Source: a bacterium
Lineage (GTDB): Bacteria > JAMOTN01
Assembly: GCA_027062325.1 (NCBI GenBank)
Contig: JAMOTN010000067.1
Span: forward strand, 1 to 22,326
Length of the DNA: 22,326 nt
Direction: 5' to 3'
The notes under the pieces were generated by a model. That model was not told the DNA's origin. It saw nothing but the letters and a program-made list of their open reading frames with translations, and searched no databases. Both the position numbers and the translations under genes were made by a program. Positions 8,885-18,791 of the stretch are shown here, in pieces (the stretch's first letter is position 1; each line of letters starts with the position of its first letter).

Positions 8885-8947
8885 TGAGGCGGCGAAACAG
8901 TTCCCGTAACTACTTAATAGCAACTCTTCATGAGAGGAGATAGCTTA

Positions 8948-9688
8948 ATGTCAGAAATGTCAAATCGGCGAATTATCCAAACGGATCTTTTGGTTGGACT
9001 TAAAGATGTTAGTGTAAGTTACGTTTCGGATAAGGTGGCTTTGAATAAGGTTAATTTAAAAATTTTTTCAGGAGAAAAAATAGCTGTTGTTGGTAAAAAT
9101 GGTTCAGGAAAGACTACTCTGGGAAAGCTTTTAGCTGCTCTTGTTGAACCAAGTGATGGAGAAGTGGTGATTAACCAACCAGCGTGCTACTTATTCCAAA
9201 ATCCTGAAAATCAGGTTGTCATGCCAACTGTGGAGCGAGAAGTTGCTTTTGGTTTTGAAAATATGGCGATGGATCCAAAGATAATGCATGAGAAGGTAGA
9301 GGGTCTGTTGAGAGCTTTTGGACTTTTTAAAAAGAAGAGTTCAAATGTTGAGGAGTTGTCAGGAGGGCAACTTCAGCGGCTGGCTATTGCTTCATTGGTT
9401 GGTTTAGAGTATCGTTTATTTTTCTTTGATGAGCCTTACGCTTATTTGGATCCTGATTCTGTTAGAAATGTTGATGATATTTTGAATGATTTGGTTGATG
9501 ATGGAGTTACCGTGATGGTTGTCATACATAGGCCTCAATATCTCGAAAAGTTTAATTATCAAAGAGTTTTGTTATTTGATAGGGGACGATTAGAATATGA
9601 TGGTCCAGTTGGTAACTTCATGCGTTCAAGAAAATTGTTAGCCATGGCTGGTTGGAATGGAGATTTTTATTTCAAGTTTAAAAAGTGA
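8948..9688 (+). CDS. ecfA1: ECF transporter ATP-binding protein EcfA1
   Basis: This is one of the paired ATPases that power ECF-type vitamin and metal importers, which use interchangeable substrate-binding S components. The 246-residue ABC domain has Walker A GKNGSGKT (49-56), Q-loop Q84 (YLFQNPENQ), signature LSGGQ (137-141), Walker B LFFFDEP (157-163) and switch H194. The QNPENQ stretch is typical of EcfA/CbiO. The frame opens at ATG 8930, but AGGAG at 8935-8939 lies inside that extension and serves ATG 8948. No S component is encoded in the window, so the substrate cannot be inferred. Confidence 0.92.
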   Translation: MSEMSNRRIIQTDLLVGLKDVSVSYVSDKVALNKVNLKIFSGEKIAVVGKNGSGKTTLGKLLAALVEPSDGEVVINQPACYLFQNPENQVVMPTVEREVAFGFENMAMDPKIMHEKVEGLLRAFGLFKKKSSNVEELSGGQLQRLAIASLVGLEYRLFFFDEPYAYLDPDSVRNVDDILNDLVDDGVTVMVVIHRPQYLEKFNYQRVLLFDRGRLEYDGPVGNFMRSRKLLAMAGWNGDFYFKFKK

Positions 9689-9711
9689 TTTTTGGGTAAG
9701 GAGTGGAACAA

Positions 9712-10413
9712 GTGGTAATATACTCTTTTAAGAACTTCTCTTATGCATACTACGGTGTAACCAAAGTTTTTGAAAATTTAAATCTGCGAATTGGTTCAAA
9801 TAATCCCCAAATTGTGGCTTTTGTTGGGCCATCTGGTTCTGGAAAAACAACTCTTTTATCTGTGATGGCAAAGCTTGTAGAAGATTACAGTGGAGAAGTT
9901 CTGTTTGAGGAGAAAAATTTGAAAGATTGGAAGGAGCTTGAATTTAGAAAAAAAGTTTTGATGTTGCTTCAGTCTCCTGAAAAACAGTTGTTTGAAGAGA
10001 ATATTTTGGCAGATGTTTTGTACACATTAAAATACGATAACTTGACTGTTGAAGAGAAGATGTTAAAGGCACAGAGGGTTCTAGAATTAGTTGGCCTGCC
10101 GAAAGATAGATGGGATAAGCCCTATTACAGATTATCTGGTGGAGAGGCTAGGAAGGCTGCTTTAGCTGCTGTTTTGGTGAAGGATTCAGAGGTGCTACTT
10201 TTGGATGAGCCAACTAGTGGTATAGATAGCGAGACGCGCCAGGAACTTTATAGAATATTTAAAAATTTAAAACGAGCTGGAAAGAGTATATTCTTTTCTT
10301 CTCACGATGTTTACTTTGTTAAGGCGGTTTCTGATGAGGTGTTTTTTGTGGATAATGGTTTGGTGAAACCTGCAGAGAATGTTGAGAAGGCAAGGTATTG
10401 GGGAGTGGTGTGA
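9712..10413 (+). CDS. ecfA2: ECF transporter ATP-binding protein EcfA2
   Basis: This second ABC ATPase of the ECF module is expected to heterodimerise with the preceding gene product. The 233-residue protein has Walker A GPSGSGKT (39-46), Q-loop Q87 (LLQSPEKQ), signature LSGGE (141-145), Walker B VLLLDEP (161-167) and H198 (SSHDV). The signature ends in E, not Q, a common EcfA2 trait. I use GTG 9712, because AAGGAG at 9698-9703 is then about 8 bases upstream; the in-frame GTG at 9703 overlaps that site. Its TGA overlaps the ecfT ATG by one base (TGATG). Confidence 0.9.
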   Translation: MVIYSFKNFSYAYYGVTKVFENLNLRIGSNNPQIVAFVGPSGSGKTTLLSVMAKLVEDYSGEVLFEEKNLKDWKELEFRKKVLMLLQSPEKQLFEENILADVLYTLKYDNLTVEEKMLKAQRVLELVGLPKDRWDKPYYRLSGGEARKAALAAVLVKDSEVLLLDEPTSGIDSETRQELYRIFKNLKRAGKSIFFSSHDVYFVKAVSDEVFFVDNGLVKPAENVEKARYWGVV

Positions 10414-11210
10414 TGTTCAACTACTGGGAGGCAGATACGGTATTTCACAGGGCTAATCCAATTGTAAAAGTACTTTTGACCTTTTTGCTTTTGATTTCCA
10501 TGTTTTTTACCAAAAAAGTTGAGGTTATGGTTGTATTTTTCGCAACTTTTATAATGATGTTTTGGTTAGCAGATACGCCGTGGGCAAAGGTTAAAGGTTT
10601 TGCTAGAATGATATTCTGGTTAGTGTTAATAACTTTTCTGCTGAATCTTTTTTATTCTGAAGAAGGTAAGATTTTGTGGCAGTTTTGGAAGTTAAAGATT
10701 ACCGAAAAGGGACTATATGACTCGATTTATTTCTCGTTGCGATTTGTGAATTTGATTTTACTTGTTCAACTTCTATTGGGAACTACGCAACCGATAGATG
10801 TAGCCACAGTTGTTGGAAGAGTGTTCAAGCCATTGGCTCGCCTTTTTCCAAGCGCGGGCTTTGCAGAGATGGAGATAATGTTGCTTCTAGCTCTCAGGTT
10901 TCTTCCAATATTTCAAAATGAGATAGAGTGGCTAATAAAGTCCAAAAGAGCTAGGGGAATAGTTGAAGATACGTTTACAAAAAAGGTTGATGGAATAGTT
11001 GGAATGGTTGTGCCACTTTTAATAAGTGCTTTCAAGAGAGCAGAAGAGTTGGCTGTTGCTTTGGAGTTGAGAGGATTTGATCCGTTTAAGGAGAGAACTT
11101 CCTATGTCAAGTGGGAGTTTAGTATGGCTGATGTTGTTGTGATTCTTTTTTACCTAATTTTAATTTTTGCTGTGATAATTCAAAAGAAGATGATAGTGTG
11201 GGATATTTAG
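10413..11210 (+). CDS. ecfT: ECF transporter transmembrane protein EcfT
   Basis: EcfT is the membrane coupler that links the EcfA ATPases to an S component. The 265-residue product has hydrophobic segments near residues 17-33, 37-52, 64-81, 105-123 and 240-258. Between them is a long amphipathic region with the two Ala-Arg-Gly-type coupling motifs, ARG at 180-182 and the variant LRG at 219-221 (ELRGF). ATG 10413 is chosen: it overlaps the ecfA2 stop and has GGGGAGTGG just upstream, whereas a longer frame starting at TTG 10398 lies within ecfA2. EcfA1-EcfA2-EcfT form the shared energising module of group II ECF transporters. Confidence 0.9.
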   Translation: MFNYWEADTVFHRANPIVKVLLTFLLLISMFFTKKVEVMVVFFATFIMMFWLADTPWAKVKGFARMIFWLVLITFLLNLFYSEEGKILWQFWKLKITEKGLYDSIYFSLRFVNLILLVQLLLGTTQPIDVATVVGRVFKPLARLFPSAGFAEMEIMLLLALRFLPIFQNEIEWLIKSKRARGIVEDTFTKKVDGIVGMVVPLLISAFKRAEELAVALELRGFDPFKERTSYVKWEFSMADVVVILFYLILIFAVIIQKKMIVWDI

Positions 11211-11221
11211 GGGTGATGTAA

Positions 11222-12073
11222 TTGGTTACGTTTGTTGGGTGGTTGAGCTACAGTGGTCAAAATTACTACGGTTTTCAGCGTCAAAAAGATTTTCCAACTA
11301 TCCAAGGAGCGTTTGAAGATGTGGTTTCGACTCTAGTGCAACAAACGGTAAGGATTTCAAGTTCCGGAAGAACTGATAGGGGGGTAAATGCAGTAGGTCA
11401 TGTTGTTTCCTTCTCTTTAGATAGATTGCCTTTTTCGCCAGACAAATTTAAAGAGTTGATAAATACTCGTTTACCTGAAGATATAAGGTTGTTAGATTTG
11501 AAAGTTGTGAGTGGTAAATTTGATCCAAGAAAAAGGGCATACAGTAAGATTTACCGTTACCAGATTTGGTTGGGAGATGTTTATCCCTTTTTCGCTTCAA
11601 TGTCGTGGTGCGTCAGGACAGAAAAAAGGTTCAAGGGGTTAGAGTTTGATTTTGCAAGATGCCAGCAGGCTTGTGAAGTACTTGTTGGTGAGCACGATTT
11701 TGCTTCGTTTTGTTCGACTCAAGCAGCTAAAGAGAAGAAAAGCACTGTGAGGCGTATCTTTAATTATACGGCCAAGCTGGTTAAAGATTGTATTTTTGAT
11801 TTGTCAGGGGATTTTTTGGTTTTAGAAGTGGAAGGTGAGGGATTTTTGCAGTATCAGGTGAGAATTATGACGGCTTCGATTCTTGAAGTGGCTTTTGGAA
11901 GAGAAAATTTGGATTGGCTTAAAATGTTGCTTGAAGTAAAGGATCGGCGTGTTGCGCCACCAATGGCTCCACCACAGGGATTGTTTTTATGGAGAGTGAA
12001 TTATAGAGGAATTGAGTTTATGGATGTTTCGAAGTTAAAAAGAGATCCAGCTACTGGTAAGTTGAAATTGTGA
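11222..12073 (+). CDS. truA: tRNA pseudouridine(38-40) synthase TruA
   Basis: TruA isomerises uridines 38-40 in the anticodon stem of many tRNAs. The 283-residue product has the active-site motif SGRTDRGVNAVGH with catalytic D52, the YYGFQRQ segment near residues 15-21, and the C-terminal half motif RIMTASILEVAFG. It is some 20-35 residues longer than common TruA, partly because of a C-terminal tail (DVSKLKRDPATGKLKL). The start is TTG 11222, preceded by GGGGTGAT at 11210-11217; the ATG between them runs straight into a stop. Placement after ecfT is the usual Firmicutes arrangement. Confidence 0.93.
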   Translation: MVTFVGWLSYSGQNYYGFQRQKDFPTIQGAFEDVVSTLVQQTVRISSSGRTDRGVNAVGHVVSFSLDRLPFSPDKFKELINTRLPEDIRLLDLKVVSGKFDPRKRAYSKIYRYQIWLGDVYPFFASMSWCVRTEKRFKGLEFDFARCQQACEVLVGEHDFASFCSTQAAKEKKSTVRRIFNYTAKLVKDCIFDLSGDFLVLEVEGEGFLQYQVRIMTASILEVAFGRENLDWLKMLLEVKDRRVAPPMAPPQGLFLWRVNYRGIEFMDVSKLKRDPATGKLKL

Positions 12074-12110
12074 TGTGTTAGAAGTTTTTAAGAATAATGA
12101 GGTGAATTTG

Positions 12111-12830
12111 ATGGAATTCAGGGAGGATTTTTGGAGTTGGGGAGCAAGGCAAGAAGATTTAAATGAGAGTTACAACAGGGGAAAGCCGTATTGTCAGTGG
12201 GGAAGAGTTGGAGCTTGTTGTAGACAGTGTTTAATTGGTCCTTGTCAATTAAGGCAGCAGGATATTGCAGTGTGTGGTAAGAGATGGGAGGATGTTCTCT
12301 ACTCTTCATATGTTGAGCAACTTGCGCGTGCTTTCGCAATGATTGGTGAGCATGAGATGGCTGGAAAAATGTTAGAGCATAGTTTGAGGAGAGGTACATT
12401 GAACAAAGTTTTAGAATTGGTTAATAATTGGATGAAAAGGGTAGCTGATTCGAATAATGAAGTGAATGGTGATACAACCCCCTATCTTTGGTTGGTTGAT
12501 TGTTCGTCTGTGAGGGTGTCTGCTGGAAAGATTGCTCAAGAGTTTGCGAATAAAGCTGCTGAGCTGAATGTTGTGACGGAGAGGGTGAGATGTTTAGAGT
12601 GTGGGAGTGCTTTAAGGAAGTTTGCAATGATTGGGAGTGGAAAAGTTGCTATTCCTGAGGCTTTGTGTCCCGTTTCTATTCTGTGGTTTACGTGTGGTAT
12701 AGTAAAAGGAGTAAAAGTTGTGATAAATCCGCCATTCGATGGGATATTTTTATTTTCAAATTTGTACAAGTGGGGGAAAAAGGCTCTCTATAACTTTGAG
12801 AATTGGTTGCTGGATGAGGAAAGCATCTGA
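12111..12830 (+). CDS. Stand-alone CO-dehydrogenase N-terminal-like Fe-S protein
   Basis: The N-terminal part of this 239-residue protein matches the B/D-cluster region of anaerobic Ni CO dehydrogenase (CooS) and, more distantly, hybrid-cluster protein. C28-x7-C36-C37-x2-C40-x4-C45-x9-C55 keeps all six cysteines, with the conserved GACCRQCLIGPC and a following VCG. The helical stretch to about residue 95 (SSYVEQLARAFAMIGEHEMA) also resembles CooS. The catalytic C-cluster Rossmann domains are missing, so it cannot be a CO dehydrogenase by itself. The C-terminal half is a different domain with C131, C161-x2-C164, C186 and C195 and could bind a further cluster or zinc; I do not recognise it. ATG 12111 has GAGGTGAA just upstream; GTG 12075 lacks a ribosome binding site. 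A role as an electron carrier or redox sensor is inference. Confidence 0.75.
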   Translation: MEFREDFWSWGARQEDLNESYNRGKPYCQWGRVGACCRQCLIGPCQLRQQDIAVCGKRWEDVLYSSYVEQLARAFAMIGEHEMAGKMLEHSLRRGTLNKVLELVNNWMKRVADSNNEVNGDTTPYLWLVDCSSVRVSAGKIAQEFANKAAELNVVTERVRCLECGSALRKFAMIGSGKVAIPEALCPVSILWFTCGIVKGVKVVINPPFDGIFLFSNLYKWGKKALYNFENWLLDEESI

Positions 12831-12852: not shown

Positions 12853-14598
12853 ATGGTTAGGAAAAAAGAGGTTAAGAAGTTAAATAGCAGTATGAGGGAG
12901 AGTCTCAATTACTTAATAGATATAGCAAATTTTGTAGCGGTTGATCTTGATTTTAACAGTGTTTTACAACGAATTGTTGATCGTTCAACGGATTTTTTCT
13001 CTGCTCAAAGTTGTTCAATAATTGCTAATATTGAGGGACGTTATATTGTTGTTGCTGCTACCGGGAGTAGTAGGGATCTTATAGGAAGGGAGATAAAGCC
13101 GGGTGAAGGAATCGCAGGAAAAGTTATAGAAACGGGAAAACCTGTATTTAGTCGAGGAACTTCTAAGCGTTACAAAAAGCAGTCGTTTATGGTTATACCA
13201 TTGGAGAGAAGTGGTCGGGTTGTAGGAGTACTGAATATAACAGACAAATCTGATGGTGAATTCTCTTTTGAGGATTTTGAAATAGCGCAAGCACTCAGTA
13301 AGTATCTTGCAATATTTGTTGAAAATGCTAAGTTGTTTACAGAGCAAGCGAGACTTTATGATAAGTTGGAATTGCTTTACGTTACACTTGATAAATTGAA
13401 TAGGTACATACTTCCACGTGAAATATTTGACTTCTTAATTCATCGAATACGAGAGGTTGTTGGTGCCGAAAGAGTATCGGTGATGGTAGAAGAGGCAGGG
13501 GCTCTAAAGGTCGTAGCTGCGAGTGGTTTTGAACCTCCTGATGATTATATAACTTCTGGTATATCCTGGGAGGTTTTTACCTCCAATAAACCTTTGTGGA
13601 TAAAAAATATAGAAGAGGAAGAATTTTCAAAATTTGCAAGGCATACTGAGGAGTACACAACTAAAAGTGCAATTGTGGTGCCGCTTGAGACTGATGGAGA
13701 AGTCCTGGGAGTGTTGAATGTTACTAATAAGTTGAGTGGAGATTTTGATGAGGATGATTACAACTTAGTTGTAGCAATAGCGAATGTTTCGGCAGTAGCT
13801 CTCCATAGGGCTATGCTTTACGAACGTGTAGAGAGAAAATATGCAGAATACTTTTATTTAAGTGAGGTTGTGAAAGCTGCCCTTCATGCTACTGGCCTTG
13901 AGGCTCTTTTGAGAGAGTGGTATACCTTCCTAAAAGTGAATGCACATATACCACATCTTCACATAGTGCTGGAGGTGACGCGGAGTAGGGCATTGGATGA
14001 TGGGGATGTGTATACTTTAGAGGTTGGAGATGGACGGTTGGAGCAATTTGTTTCTGAAACCTTTAGAAATTATAAGCTGGTTTTGTTCTCTCCTGCTGAT
14101 GCTGCTTTTTTAAAGATGTTGGCTTCAGAGATGGTGATGGCGTGTGCAGCTATAGCGGGAGAGAAAATCAGATATGAGGAAAGAAAGGTAAATTTGAGTG
14201 TTAAGGTAAGGAATCCTGCAGAGGAAAAGTATGAAATAGAGAAGAAAGTGAGAATAAGAAAAGTTGCAATGGCAATAGCTGAGGATATGGGAGAGGATGT
14301 TGAGGCTTTGATAAAAGAGATAGATAAGTGGAACAAAAGTTCAACTGGTAAACTTGTTTATAAAGGAGAAAAGTGGAGTGGTGGAGGTTATCCTTATGGA
14401 TTAAAAGCTCATCAAATTCCATGGGAAGCTAGGGTTTACAGTGTTGCTGAGACTTTTACTTCTATCGCTTTAAAAGATGATGTGGAAAAAGCACTAATGC
14501 TTGTAAAAAAAGAGTCGGGAAGGAGCTTTGATCCTAAGGTAGTGGAGAGCTTAGAGAGACTTTATTACTCTGGAAAGTTGAAAGAGTTTGTAGAATAG
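12853..14598 (+). CDS. Dual-GAF protein with degenerate HD-GYP domain
   Basis: This 581-residue soluble protein has GAF1 at about 33-160 and GAF2 at about 190-320; both show the ...VxVPLxxDGEVxGVLNVTNK type of strand (GAF1: MVIPLERSGRVVGVLNIT). Next comes an unassigned stretch (325-460), then a C-terminal segment (467-581) ending like an HD-GYP phosphodiesterase: KWSGGGYPYGLKAHQIPWEAR with GYP at 512-514, then FDPKVVESL. The part that should carry the HD pair and other metal histidines is largely deleted, and the usual VADxYDA aspartate region reads VAETFTS. Cyclic-di-GMP hydrolysis is therefore unlikely; it is more plausibly a ligand-sensing or binding protein. ATG 12853 follows GGGGAGTGG. 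It lies 22 bases after the CooS-like gene. Confidence 0.8.
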   Translation: MVRKKEVKKLNSSMRESLNYLIDIANFVAVDLDFNSVLQRIVDRSTDFFSAQSCSIIANIEGRYIVVAATGSSRDLIGREIKPGEGIAGKVIETGKPVFSRGTSKRYKKQSFMVIPLERSGRVVGVLNITDKSDGEFSFEDFEIAQALSKYLAIFVENAKLFTEQARLYDKLELLYVTLDKLNRYILPREIFDFLIHRIREVVGAERVSVMVEEAGALKVVAASGFEPPDDYITSGISWEVFTSNKPLWIKNIEEEEFSKFARHTEEYTTKSAIVVPLETDGEVLGVLNVTNKLSGDFDEDDYNLVVAIANVSAVALHRAMLYERVERKYAEYFYLSEVVKAALHATGLEALLREWYTFLKVNAHIPHLHIVLEVTRSRALDDGDVYTLEVGDGRLEQFVSETFRNYKLVLFSPADAAFLKMLASEMVMACAAIAGEKIRYEERKVNLSVKVRNPAEEKYEIEKKVRIRKVAMAIAEDMGEDVEALIKEIDKWNKSSTGKLVYKGEKWSGGGYPYGLKAHQIPWEARVYSVAETFTSIALKDDVEKALMLVKKESGRSFDPKVVESLERLYYSGKLKEFVE

Positions 14599-15695: not shown

Positions 15696-16439
15696 ATGGA
15701 TGTGGCTTTGCTATTTTCTGGCGGAGTAAAGAGTTTGGAAGCTCTTGAGTTGCTGGTAGAATTAGAAGATTCAGAGAGGTTGAAAGTGTGGCCTGTGTTT
15801 TTTGCTAATCCTTTGGAAGGCTTTAAAGGAGAGCGGATCTTTTGGCAACTAAAAAAAGCAAGTTCGTTGGCCACTGCGTTTGGAAAGAAACTATATGTGT
15901 TATATCCCGATGATGAGTATGGCGATTTGATTTTGGAATTTTTCAAAGAAGGGTGGCCGCGTAGGAGGTTGTGCCAGAATATAAGGATATATCTTGTGAG
16001 GAGGTTGATAAAATCTGGGTTTAATTCTGTTGCTTTTGGAGATGTGTTGCTTGCAAGTTGTTTAGGAGGGAAAAAAGATTTCAATTATGTGGTTATGCAT
16101 AGTGGTTATAAGGGGTGGGTGTTTTTTCCACTTTCGGCGACTAAGTTGGAACCAACTAAAGTTGAGAACGTCTTATTTATTAGGAGAAGAGAAAAAGGGT
16201 TGATTGGTAAAAAAAGTGCTTATAGATTGCGAAAAAAATGGGGGGATATAGCTTTGAAAAGTAGTTGCCTTTTGCAGAAGAGGGGAGGGGAGAATGAGTT
16301 GATAAAAAAGATGAATTGGTTGGCTCAAGTTGGGGAAATAAATGATTTTTACAATTATTTAGGAGTAAAGTGGTATTGGATGGGTGGAAAGCTATATGCT
16401 GAAAAGATTGAGATTGGCGTTCAAACTACTCCATTTTAA
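15696..16439 (+). CDS. PP-loop ATP pyrophosphatase-like protein with SGGVKS motif
   Basis: The 247-residue product begins with an N-type PP-loop, SGGVKS at residues 8-13, at the end of a first beta strand (MDVALLF). Most PP-loop enzymes have SGGxDS; here K replaces the aspartate. Further on, SVAFGDVLLAS and the later WVFFPLSATK resemble the AFGDxFL and FPLW segments of the diphthine-ammonia-ligase-like (Dph6-like) PP-loop family, so an ATP-dependent amidation, thiolation or related adenylating activity is possible. Bacteria do not make diphthamide, so the substrate is unknown. Cysteines occur in RRLCQN, LASCLGG and SSCLLQ. ATG 15696 follows a five-G ribosome binding site. It heads the five-gene run to 22135. 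Confidence 0.65.
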   Translation: MDVALLFSGGVKSLEALELLVELEDSERLKVWPVFFANPLEGFKGERIFWQLKKASSLATAFGKKLYVLYPDDEYGDLILEFFKEGWPRRRLCQNIRIYLVRRLIKSGFNSVAFGDVLLASCLGGKKDFNYVVMHSGYKGWVFFPLSATKLEPTKVENVLFIRRREKGLIGKKSAYRLRKKWGDIALKSSCLLQKRGGENELIKKMNWLAQVGEINDFYNYLGVKWYWMGGKLYAEKIEIGVQTTPF

Positions 16440-16454
16440 TTGGGAGGGAGAAGA

Positions 16455-18791
16455 TTGAAAGCTTCTGAGATAGTGAAAAAATACTTTTCATTGGATAACG
16501 AGAAGAAGAAACTGTTGGTGGAGAAGATAAAAAAGTTGCCGCTTGATATTTCTGTTAAGTTGATAGCTGTTATTTTGAAAAAAGAAGAAGATCAGGAGAT
16601 GCGAGTATATCTAAAAGAGATTTATCAATCTTTAAATCCAGAGCCTAAGAAAGAGCCTACGTTGGAGGAACTGATTAAGGAAGGTAATACTAAAGCGTTT
16701 GATTTGTTTAGGAAGAAAAGTATAGAGGATAGAATAGCTTTTTTGAAAGCTTTTAATGAGTTGGATGCTCCTTTGGTTAATAAAGAGAGGTTTTTAGAAG
16801 AAGTTTTATTAAAGAGTACAAATTCGATGGTTATAGCTACTGCTATTTCTCTTCTTAAAAACTTTGATAGGAATAGGAGAGTAGAAAGAAGGGTTGAGAA
16901 GTTTTTGGAACACTCCGATGAGAGGGTAGTTGCTAACTCCATCGAGCTTTTGACAGAGTGGGGGGATAAGAGAGTCAAGGATAAGATAAAAGAGTTTGTA
17001 AACTCTGGTGATGCTCGTATAAAAGCAGCAGCTGCTATGTACTTTGAGAAATTGGGATTTGCTGAGGAATTAAAGGAGGCTGTGGAAAGCTTGAATACGG
17101 CAGGAGATGCTGCCTCTAAAGAAGCTTTGGAGTGGGTTGCTGATAATGTAAAGTTAGAAGATGAGAAAAGTGTGCAAGAGACTGAAAAAACAGGAGATTT
17201 TCCGGAGAATAAGAATAAGGAAAGTGCGAATGAAGAGGATCAGAAAGATAGTAAGCAGTTTAAAGAGGGAGAGAGTACACCGGTTATTGAAAGTTCTATC
17301 GGAAATGGGACAGCTGGTGAGAAGATTGAAACTCGTATTGAGACTGAGAGTGAGCAAATAAATAGGTTGCTCAATTCGGTGGACAAGAGGGCAAAGAACG
17401 ATAGGTTTAGAAAGGTTGTAATGATGGTTTTGCTTTTGGTATTGGTTTCTCTGGGGGCTGTCGCAAGTTACTGGTGGTTTAAGATTGGGAGAGGAGAGGT
17501 TTCAAATACGGTGGTTTCAAAGGGTGTTCGTAAAGATTCTTTAAGAGTGAACTCAGGAAGAGGTTTGAAACAGCCTCCCCAACGTGCTCAAAATCCTATC
17601 GAGAAGATTAGAAAATATGTGAGATTTGGTGATTGGGATAATGCATACACTGCTTTAGTAGACTGGTTAGATGGAGTTTCGCATATTAACCAATGGTCTG
17701 ATGTGCTGCTTGCTGTTGATGTGTTGATCAATGCTCCTGCTACTATGAGGGACAAGGAGAGTATTTTGAGGACTTTGCTCAAGCGCTGTTCGGATAATAG
17801 TATGGCTGTTTTTGCAAGAGCCTATTTTAACTACTACGCTTATGGTGGAAAGGGAATAGATGAGAAGGTGGTGGCAGTTCTGGATAAAGTTTCCAACTCC
17901 AAGGTTAGGGAGTTTGTGAAAAAAGTGCGGGAGTATTTATTCCAGAAAAAGTTTGTAGTTTATCAAAGTGAGGTCAAAACTGCAGTGAAAGCTTTGATTG
18001 ATAATGTTTGGAAAGGGAAAGTTGTTGGAGTTTTTGCTTTTGAGAAGGCTGCTTTGGAAAAAGTTTTAAAGATAGCTTCTGCAGATTTGAAAATTGTTGC
18101 TACTAGTGTCAAAAGAGGAAAGGGAAGCGATTGGAAGATGTTATTGAGGGTAAAAGGCAGTTTAGTATTTTGGAATGGTATTGAAAAGAGTGGAATATTT
18201 GATTTGGTGTTTTTGTGCAGAAACAATGGTATTGTAGGTTTCAGTGTGGTGGAGAAGGATGTTAAGACTTATGATAAGTTAAAATCTAGTGGAACTGCTT
18301 TAGGAAACTGGGCTTTGGCTTTGAGAAGGGTATTGCGTGCAAAAGGGAAGGGAGAAGTTATTAAAGCTGCAAGGAGTTATGTGAAGAGTTATAAACATGT
18401 GGCTCCTTTTACCTATTACCGGAAGTTGATTGATGAAGGTGTTGAAAGAAGTGATGAAGTTTTAATAGGGTGGATGTACAATCTTTTTGAATGGGAAGAT
18501 TACTGCGATGATAAAATGAAAAAAGAAAGGGAAGAGTTAACAAATATTCTCTCGAATATGGAAAGTTACAGTCAGGAAGGCTTATTGGGAAAATTGAAGG
18601 GGTTGAAAGGAGTAAGTATGGAGTTGAAGGCTTTGATATGGAGAGTGGCTGTTGAGGTAAATGATGCGAATACTGCAGCTAAAATTACTAAATTCTATGA
18701 GTTAAATGCACCTTTTAATGTATTCTTTAGAAGAATAATGTTATCAAAGGAGAAGGTGGTCTTATGGAAAGACTTGAGGAAATTGTTGTAA
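16455..18791 (+). CDS. HEAT-like repeat membrane protein, function unknown
   Basis: I do not recognise a named family for this 778-residue protein. Residues 1-230 are helical and HEAT-like, with repeated pairs such as SNMVIATAISLLKNF, DERVVANSIELLTEW and DARIKAAAAMYFEKLG. About 235-310 is a charged low-complexity linker rich in E, K, N and S. A single membrane segment lies at about 321-343, preceded by RFRK, so the N-terminus should be cytoplasmic. The 430-residue C-terminal part would be extracytoplasmic or periplasmic; it has no clear domain and ends with helical repeats. TTG 16455 is chosen: GGGAGG at 16442-16447 precedes it at good distance, while TTG 16440 overlaps the upstream stop. The last 28 bases overlap the next gene. 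Confidence 0.7.
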   Translation: MKASEIVKKYFSLDNEKKKLLVEKIKKLPLDISVKLIAVILKKEEDQEMRVYLKEIYQSLNPEPKKEPTLEELIKEGNTKAFDLFRKKSIEDRIAFLKAFNELDAPLVNKERFLEEVLLKSTNSMVIATAISLLKNFDRNRRVERRVEKFLEHSDERVVANSIELLTEWGDKRVKDKIKEFVNSGDARIKAAAAMYFEKLGFAEELKEAVESLNTAGDAASKEALEWVADNVKLEDEKSVQETEKTGDFPENKNKESANEEDQKDSKQFKEGESTPVIESSIGNGTAGEKIETRIETESEQINRLLNSVDKRAKNDRFRKVVMMVLLLVLVSLGAVASYWWFKIGRGEVSNTVVSKGVRKDSLRVNSGRGLKQPPQRAQNPIEKIRKYVRFGDWDNAYTALVDWLDGVSHINQWSDVLLAVDVLINAPATMRDKESILRTLLKRCSDNSMAVFARAYFNYYAYGGKGIDEKVVAVLDKVSNSKVREFVKKVREYLFQKKFVVYQSEVKTAVKALIDNVWKGKVVGVFAFEKAALEKVLKIASADLKIVATSVKRGKGSDWKMLLRVKGSLVFWNGIEKSGIFDLVFLCRNNGIVGFSVVEKDVKTYDKLKSSGTALGNWALALRRVLRAKGKGEVIKAARSYVKSYKHVAPFTYYRKLIDEGVERSDEVLIGWMYNLFEWEDYCDDKMKKEREELTNILSNMESYSQEGLLGKLKGLKGVSMELKALIWRVAVEVNDANTAAKITKFYELNAPFNVFFRRIMLSKEKVVLWKDLRKLL

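Follow-up and report, generated by a model that had tools for sequence, protein, structure and literature searches.

A short protein with the D/B-cluster region of Ni-CO dehydrogenase and without a complete C-cluster ligand set

Can the cluster-bearing N-terminal end of a CO dehydrogenase (CODH) stand alone as a protein, and if so, what might it do? The question is raised by a gene in a 22,326-nucleotide stretch of bacterial DNA (hereafter the window) whose product has 239 residues, about 400 fewer than full CODHs (about 600-690 residues). The gene is intact and native. Its synonymous codon usage was 0.197, against 0.14-0.24 in the other non-ribosomal genes (map excepted), and it sits in a long same-strand run, 37 bp after the upstream gene, which from its translation we take to be truA-like, and 22 bp before the downstream gene (Table 1). 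A ribosomal protein cluster on the same contig makes it very probable that the gene belongs to the organism, whose assembly amounts to 1.65 Mb and is 84% complete. An alternative, longer start at the GTG at 12075 is possible. Cysteines had been listed in an earlier note on this DNA at positions 28, 36, 37, 40, 45, 55, 131, 161, 164, 186, and 195 of the 239-residue protein, and all of them match the translation. Elsewhere in the window, at 8930-11210, two ABC ATPases and a membrane protein resemble the energy module of an ECF transporter, with no adjoining substrate component.

Table 1. Features of the locus (positions are those of the window)
Feature	Position	Strand	Basis
Upstream gene, 37 bp away	11222..12073	+	coordinates from ORF list
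Shine-Dalgarno-like GAGGTG, 6 nt 5' of the ATG at 12111	12099..12104	+	sequence reading
Stand-alone CODH-N-terminal-like Fe-S protein (putative), 239 aa	12111..12830	+	translation uninterrupted; neighbour-like codon usage
Region homologous, by sequence comparison, to the CooS N-terminal D/B-cluster region and first helices, residues 21-94	12171..12392	+	phmmer, 46-CODH HMM, shuffles
Type II D-cluster motif C28-x7-C36 (= C39, C47 of CODH-II)	12192..12218	+	CODH alignments
B-cluster ligand set C37, C40, C45, C55 (= C48, C51, C56, C70 of CODH-II)	12219..12275	+	CODH alignments
C-terminal half, residues 113-239, probable alpha/beta domain; C131, C161, C164, C186, C195	12447..12827	+	weak CODH domain-3 resemblance; guided model
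GAF-GAF-degenerate HD-GYP protein, 22 bp downstream	12853..14598	+	HD_5 match at profile positions 99-170 of 170

Sequence comparisons indicated that residues 21-94 are homologous to the N terminus of CooS-type Ni-CODHs and are CooS-like rather than Hcp-like. The best phmmer match in the PDB was CODH-II (E 3.4e-7, query residues 19-100), all PDB chains found at E <10 were CODHs, and an HMM built from 46 CODHs scored 45.7 bits across the region, so that the profile match to CooS over roughly the first 100 residues is significant. The general models responded as well, NCBIfam TIGR01702 with 21.4 bits (E 6e-5; its equivalog cut-off of 478 bits was not reached) and Pfam Prismane PF03063 with 17.5 bits (E 0.0017; its gathering score of 27 bits was not reached). 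The N-terminal 110 residues scored 48.3 bits. Full shuffles reached no more than 2.5, and the highest values in sets of 500 were 20.3 when the cysteines were held in place and 40.9 when C, G, and P were; because the real score lies above every class of shuffle, the match to CODHs exceeds what cysteine composition would give, though the motif contributes to it. All six D/B cysteines were invariant in an alignment with 13 CODHs, where they fall on C39, C47, C48, C51, C56, and C70 of CODH-II, which we take, following the established assignment, to be its D- and B-cluster ligands. The CooS pattern that had been read in residues 28-55 is thus in register with CODHs, and the similarity extends past it through the first helices, to residue 94, as had also been claimed. 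The loop ahead of the last B-cluster cysteine is x9, 4 residues shorter than that of CODH-II; x9 is common in full CODHs. C28-x7-C36-C37 satisfies the definition of a type II D-cluster motif (C-x7..13-C-C; PMC6344411), and the four B-cluster cysteines are also present. A full-length AlphaFold2 model made with an N-terminal-only alignment (mean pLDDT 47.7) was too poor to reveal the N-terminal fold, and the Foldseek matches of that model are meaningless.

The alternative of an Hcp-like N terminus, also raised previously, was ruled out, as the Hcp HMM gave no match to this region (best domain -3.7 bits) and the cysteine pattern is not that of Hcp. Hcp genes were encountered in two other settings. 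A 432-residue Hcp (L021, 4990-8067, on contig C61 of G000) lies near peroxiredoxin-, desulfoferrodoxin-, and rubrerythrin-like open reading frames, an oxidative or nitrosative stress group. At a second locus (L151, 1480-1887, minus strand), a mid-contig open reading frame of 135 residues carries only the C-terminal Prismane part, of Hcp type, and is probably the remnant of a truncated hcp.

The C-cluster of CODH-II, its Ni-Fe-S active site, is held by His261, Cys295, Cys333, Cys446, Cys476, and Cys526, the first three of which are carried by the middle domain. A profile search for this domain in the 239-residue protein gave no signal (15 shuffles were as good); with no middle domain recognisable, these three ligands have no counterparts and the C-cluster set cannot be complete. 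Two equivalents at most, C131 and C161, can be proposed from a weak match to CODH domain 3. In CODH-II, His93 is part of the acid-base machinery, together with Lys563. The near-invariant His column corresponds here to Ile78, and an alternative gapped alignment placed no His there either; at the position of Lys563, a guided alignment that itself rests on the weak domain-3 match shows no Lys. With the C-cluster set incomplete, we would not expect the protein to oxidise CO. Nor was the rest of a CODH found elsewhere: a PF03063 search of the 84%-complete assembly gave no such remainder, its sole other match being one separate 432-residue Hcp, and CdhD was not found in the same genome. A broken or split CODH was accordingly rejected, given this result and the intact frame, codon usage, and ribosome site, and the description of a stand-alone protein rather than a frameshifted enzyme was upheld. 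The accompanying statement that the Rossmann domains are gone is certain for the middle domain only, as domain 3 may or may not have been retained in reduced form.

The origin of the C-terminal half is the point on which a second explanation turns. The half is probably an alpha/beta domain, as judged from modelling, and in sequence its 127 residues weakly resemble CODH domain 3. The whole protein might thus be a drastically shortened CODH, in which the D/B region was joined to a compacted domain 3 while both the middle domain and the unit with C526 were lost; C131 would then correspond to C446, C161 to C476, and PEALC.. to PEWMSEKA.., and a simpler cluster would occupy what was once the active site. 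We regard this as a serious though minority possibility; it concerns where the C-terminal half came from and is compatible with the function that we favour below. It draws on the spacing of C131 and C161, 30 as between C446 and C476 of CODH-II; on two collinear segments, in the correct order, that hmmsearch found with a CODH domain-3 HMM, which only 3 of 300 shuffles equalled (8 of 300 for a combined CODH and Hcp profile); and on MAFFT E-INS-i, which arrived unprompted at the same placement with full-length sequences. Against it, MAFFT auto and L-INS-i placed the C terminus elsewhere, a gapped-profile version of the test was equalled by 13 of 300 shuffles and by 6 of 66 unrelated segments of the window, and a domain-3 profile from the CODHs closest to the protein in the tree of the N-terminal region was equalled by 78 shuffles. 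The Hcp domain-3 profile (126 shuffles as good) and CODH domain 2 gave no signal in this half. With several templates tried, even the lowest p, about 0.01, falls short of significance. An AlphaFold2 model of residues 113-239, guided by CODH domain-3 rows, had a pLDDT of 62.7 and alternating strands and helices, with C131, C161/C164, and C186 following successive strands; this would suit a compacted domain 3, but the input alignment presupposes that domain, and the structures that matched best were those of a de novo protein and of receiver-like domains (Z 11.3, rmsd 2.5, 113 aligned), a common arrangement. That no CODH stood among the matches listed does not count against domain 3. Residues 101-239 and 113-239 matched nothing in Pfam, PDB sequences, or the genomes. 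The half may thus be new, as had been proposed, or may be a shrunken domain 3: nothing matched it significantly, and the resemblance to domain 3 is collinear but weak. A DGC domain (PF08859), suggested by eye, was dismissed at -0.5 bits, with 57 shuffles as good and no four-Cys motif.

Relatives of the protein were sought widely, and the search for orthologues that had been proposed earlier found none: not in 59 or 386 diverse bacterial genomes, not in 39 genomes of another phylum chosen by closest SecY (only 56% identity), and not in viral contigs, plasmids, or an exact-peptide scan of genome contigs, the genomes compared all being from outside the source's phylum and related to it at the level of domain. 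The C-terminal half searched alone against genomes likewise found no relative. The motif with its exact x9 loop was also looked for in 84,980 species, a scan that would miss orthologues whose loop differs in length; of the 78 stretches returned, the real ones were CODHs (full length, or cut by the end of a contig or stretch) and the rest chance. The N-terminal profile matched in 44 of the 386 diverse genomes, and among these matches the 239-residue protein was the only short frame that the end of a contig does not explain: contigs end within the gene in G096, G038, and G174, an 82-aa frame lies at a contig start (G379:C64:29-127), and a 549-aa frame in G302 sits on a 3.1-kb contig. The protein is thus known as one sequence from one genome, on which its operon link also rests. 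A tree of the N-terminal region (100 columns) gave it a branch to the CODHs of 8.1 changes per column, too long for phylogenetic placement and compatible with relaxed constraint, which counts against the functional reading preferred here. The single genome, the very long branch, and the missing orthologue would all be expected of a decaying, functionless CODH fragment, and truncated prismane remnants do occur elsewhere, such as the 135-aa Hcp C-terminal frame in L151. We nevertheless consider such a relic improbable, as the gene has no stop or frameshift, keeps its six cluster cysteines and native codon usage, and has a good ribosome site and tight spacing to its neighbours.

The explanation that we tentatively prefer, at somewhat below an even chance, is a non-catalytic derivative of the CooS N terminus that works as an Fe-S redox dimer, either as a sensor or as a relay. 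In CODHs, electrons pass from the C-cluster to B, on to D, and from there to ferredoxin or another partner (PMC6168284; for the cluster architecture, see also PMC6344411). As the B and D sites are kept and C is lost, a homodimeric redox module is the simplest reading. By analogy with CODH structures, and plausibly, as the earlier note had suggested for dimerisation, two subunits would form a homodimer in which C28 and C36 of both hold one common, exposed D-cluster, and C37, C40, C45, and C55 would bind one [4Fe-4S] B-cluster per subunit. Less certainly, the cysteines that the guided model places at successive strand ends of the C-terminal domain may bind a further cluster or metal. Such a dimer, lacking a C-cluster and with it CO oxidation, could act as a redox relay or as a switch responsive to redox state or gas.

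The gene immediately downstream bears on the choice between these roles. Its product, whose nearest solved relative is 4mcw, retains GGGYP, and the half of the HD-GYP domain with the HDxxK/HH metal ligands is absent by eye, which makes phosphodiesterase activity improbable. This GAF-GAF-degenerate HD-GYP neighbour makes sensing slightly likelier than a general electron carrier, and two adjacent proteins, each with its binding or wiring part kept and its catalytic part lacking, would be in keeping with a sensing pair, a suggestion drawn from one locus. That the D/B module is instead a ferredoxin-like wire, diffusible or complex-bound, that serves an oxidoreductase onto which the C-terminal half docks seems to us rather unlikely; the B- and D-clusters of CODHs do bring electrons to the surface, and here that module persists with the catalytic site gone, but we recognised no oxidoreductase among the neighbouring genes of the window. 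Very improbable, in our judgement, is a role in CODH maturation or assembly through mimicry of the D/B region. Homology makes such structural mimicry conceivable, but neither a CODH nor CdhD was found in the 84%-complete assembly, and the 239-residue sequence has no His-rich stretch like that of a Ni chaperone; this role, also suggested in the earlier note, has been weakened because the genome search found no CODH to assemble. Two further genes of the window stand out in their own right. One (15696-16439) encodes a 247-residue orphan with an SGGVKS start that is PP-loop-like and no Pfam, NCBIfam, or meaningful PDB match; the other (16440-18791), which runs into the start of the following gene (CBS domains), encodes 783 residues with HEAT repeats at the N terminus, a hydrophobic stretch in the middle, and no recognised domain at the C terminus.

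What the locus suggests is a D/B-cluster end of CODH that is able to exist with no Ni-Fe-S active site attached. Were that the case, the protein would offer a small soluble model for the electron exit path of CODH and a hint as to how CODHs were assembled from modules or dismantled. A bolder and unlikely proposal makes it the first representative of a family that has detached the electron-transfer and dimerisation module of CODH from catalysis and employs it, in a CODH-less lineage, as an Fe-S redox or gas sensor with a GAF-GAF-degenerate HD-GYP partner. In the full-text literature, with subscription papers mostly outside the scope of the search, we found no account of a stand-alone D/B module. 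Two CODH surveys discarded hits below 400 or 550 residues (PMC8776680, the source on mini-CooS, <400 aa; PMC6344411), cut-offs by which proteins like the present one would be overlooked.

Among known systems, Hcp, of which this genome has a 432-aa example, shares with the protein the CODH superfamily and Pfam Prismane, and differs in its N-terminal cysteine pattern, in an HMM that does not match, and in its hybrid-cluster ligand set, which the protein does not have. Mini-CooS is, like the protein, small, divergent, and CooS-like; it has been reported with complete metal-cluster motifs (Techtmann et al. 2012, as described in PMC8776680), whereas the 239-residue protein lacks the C-cluster set, a distinction that follows from the description of mini-CooS rather than from its sequence. 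CooS with a type II D-cluster (Carboxydothermus CODH-II; TIGR01702) is far longer, at about 640 versus 239 residues, and has the middle domain, the full C-cluster set, His93, and a domain 3 that is here absent or unrecognisable; what the two have in common are the D and B motifs, in register, and the first helices.
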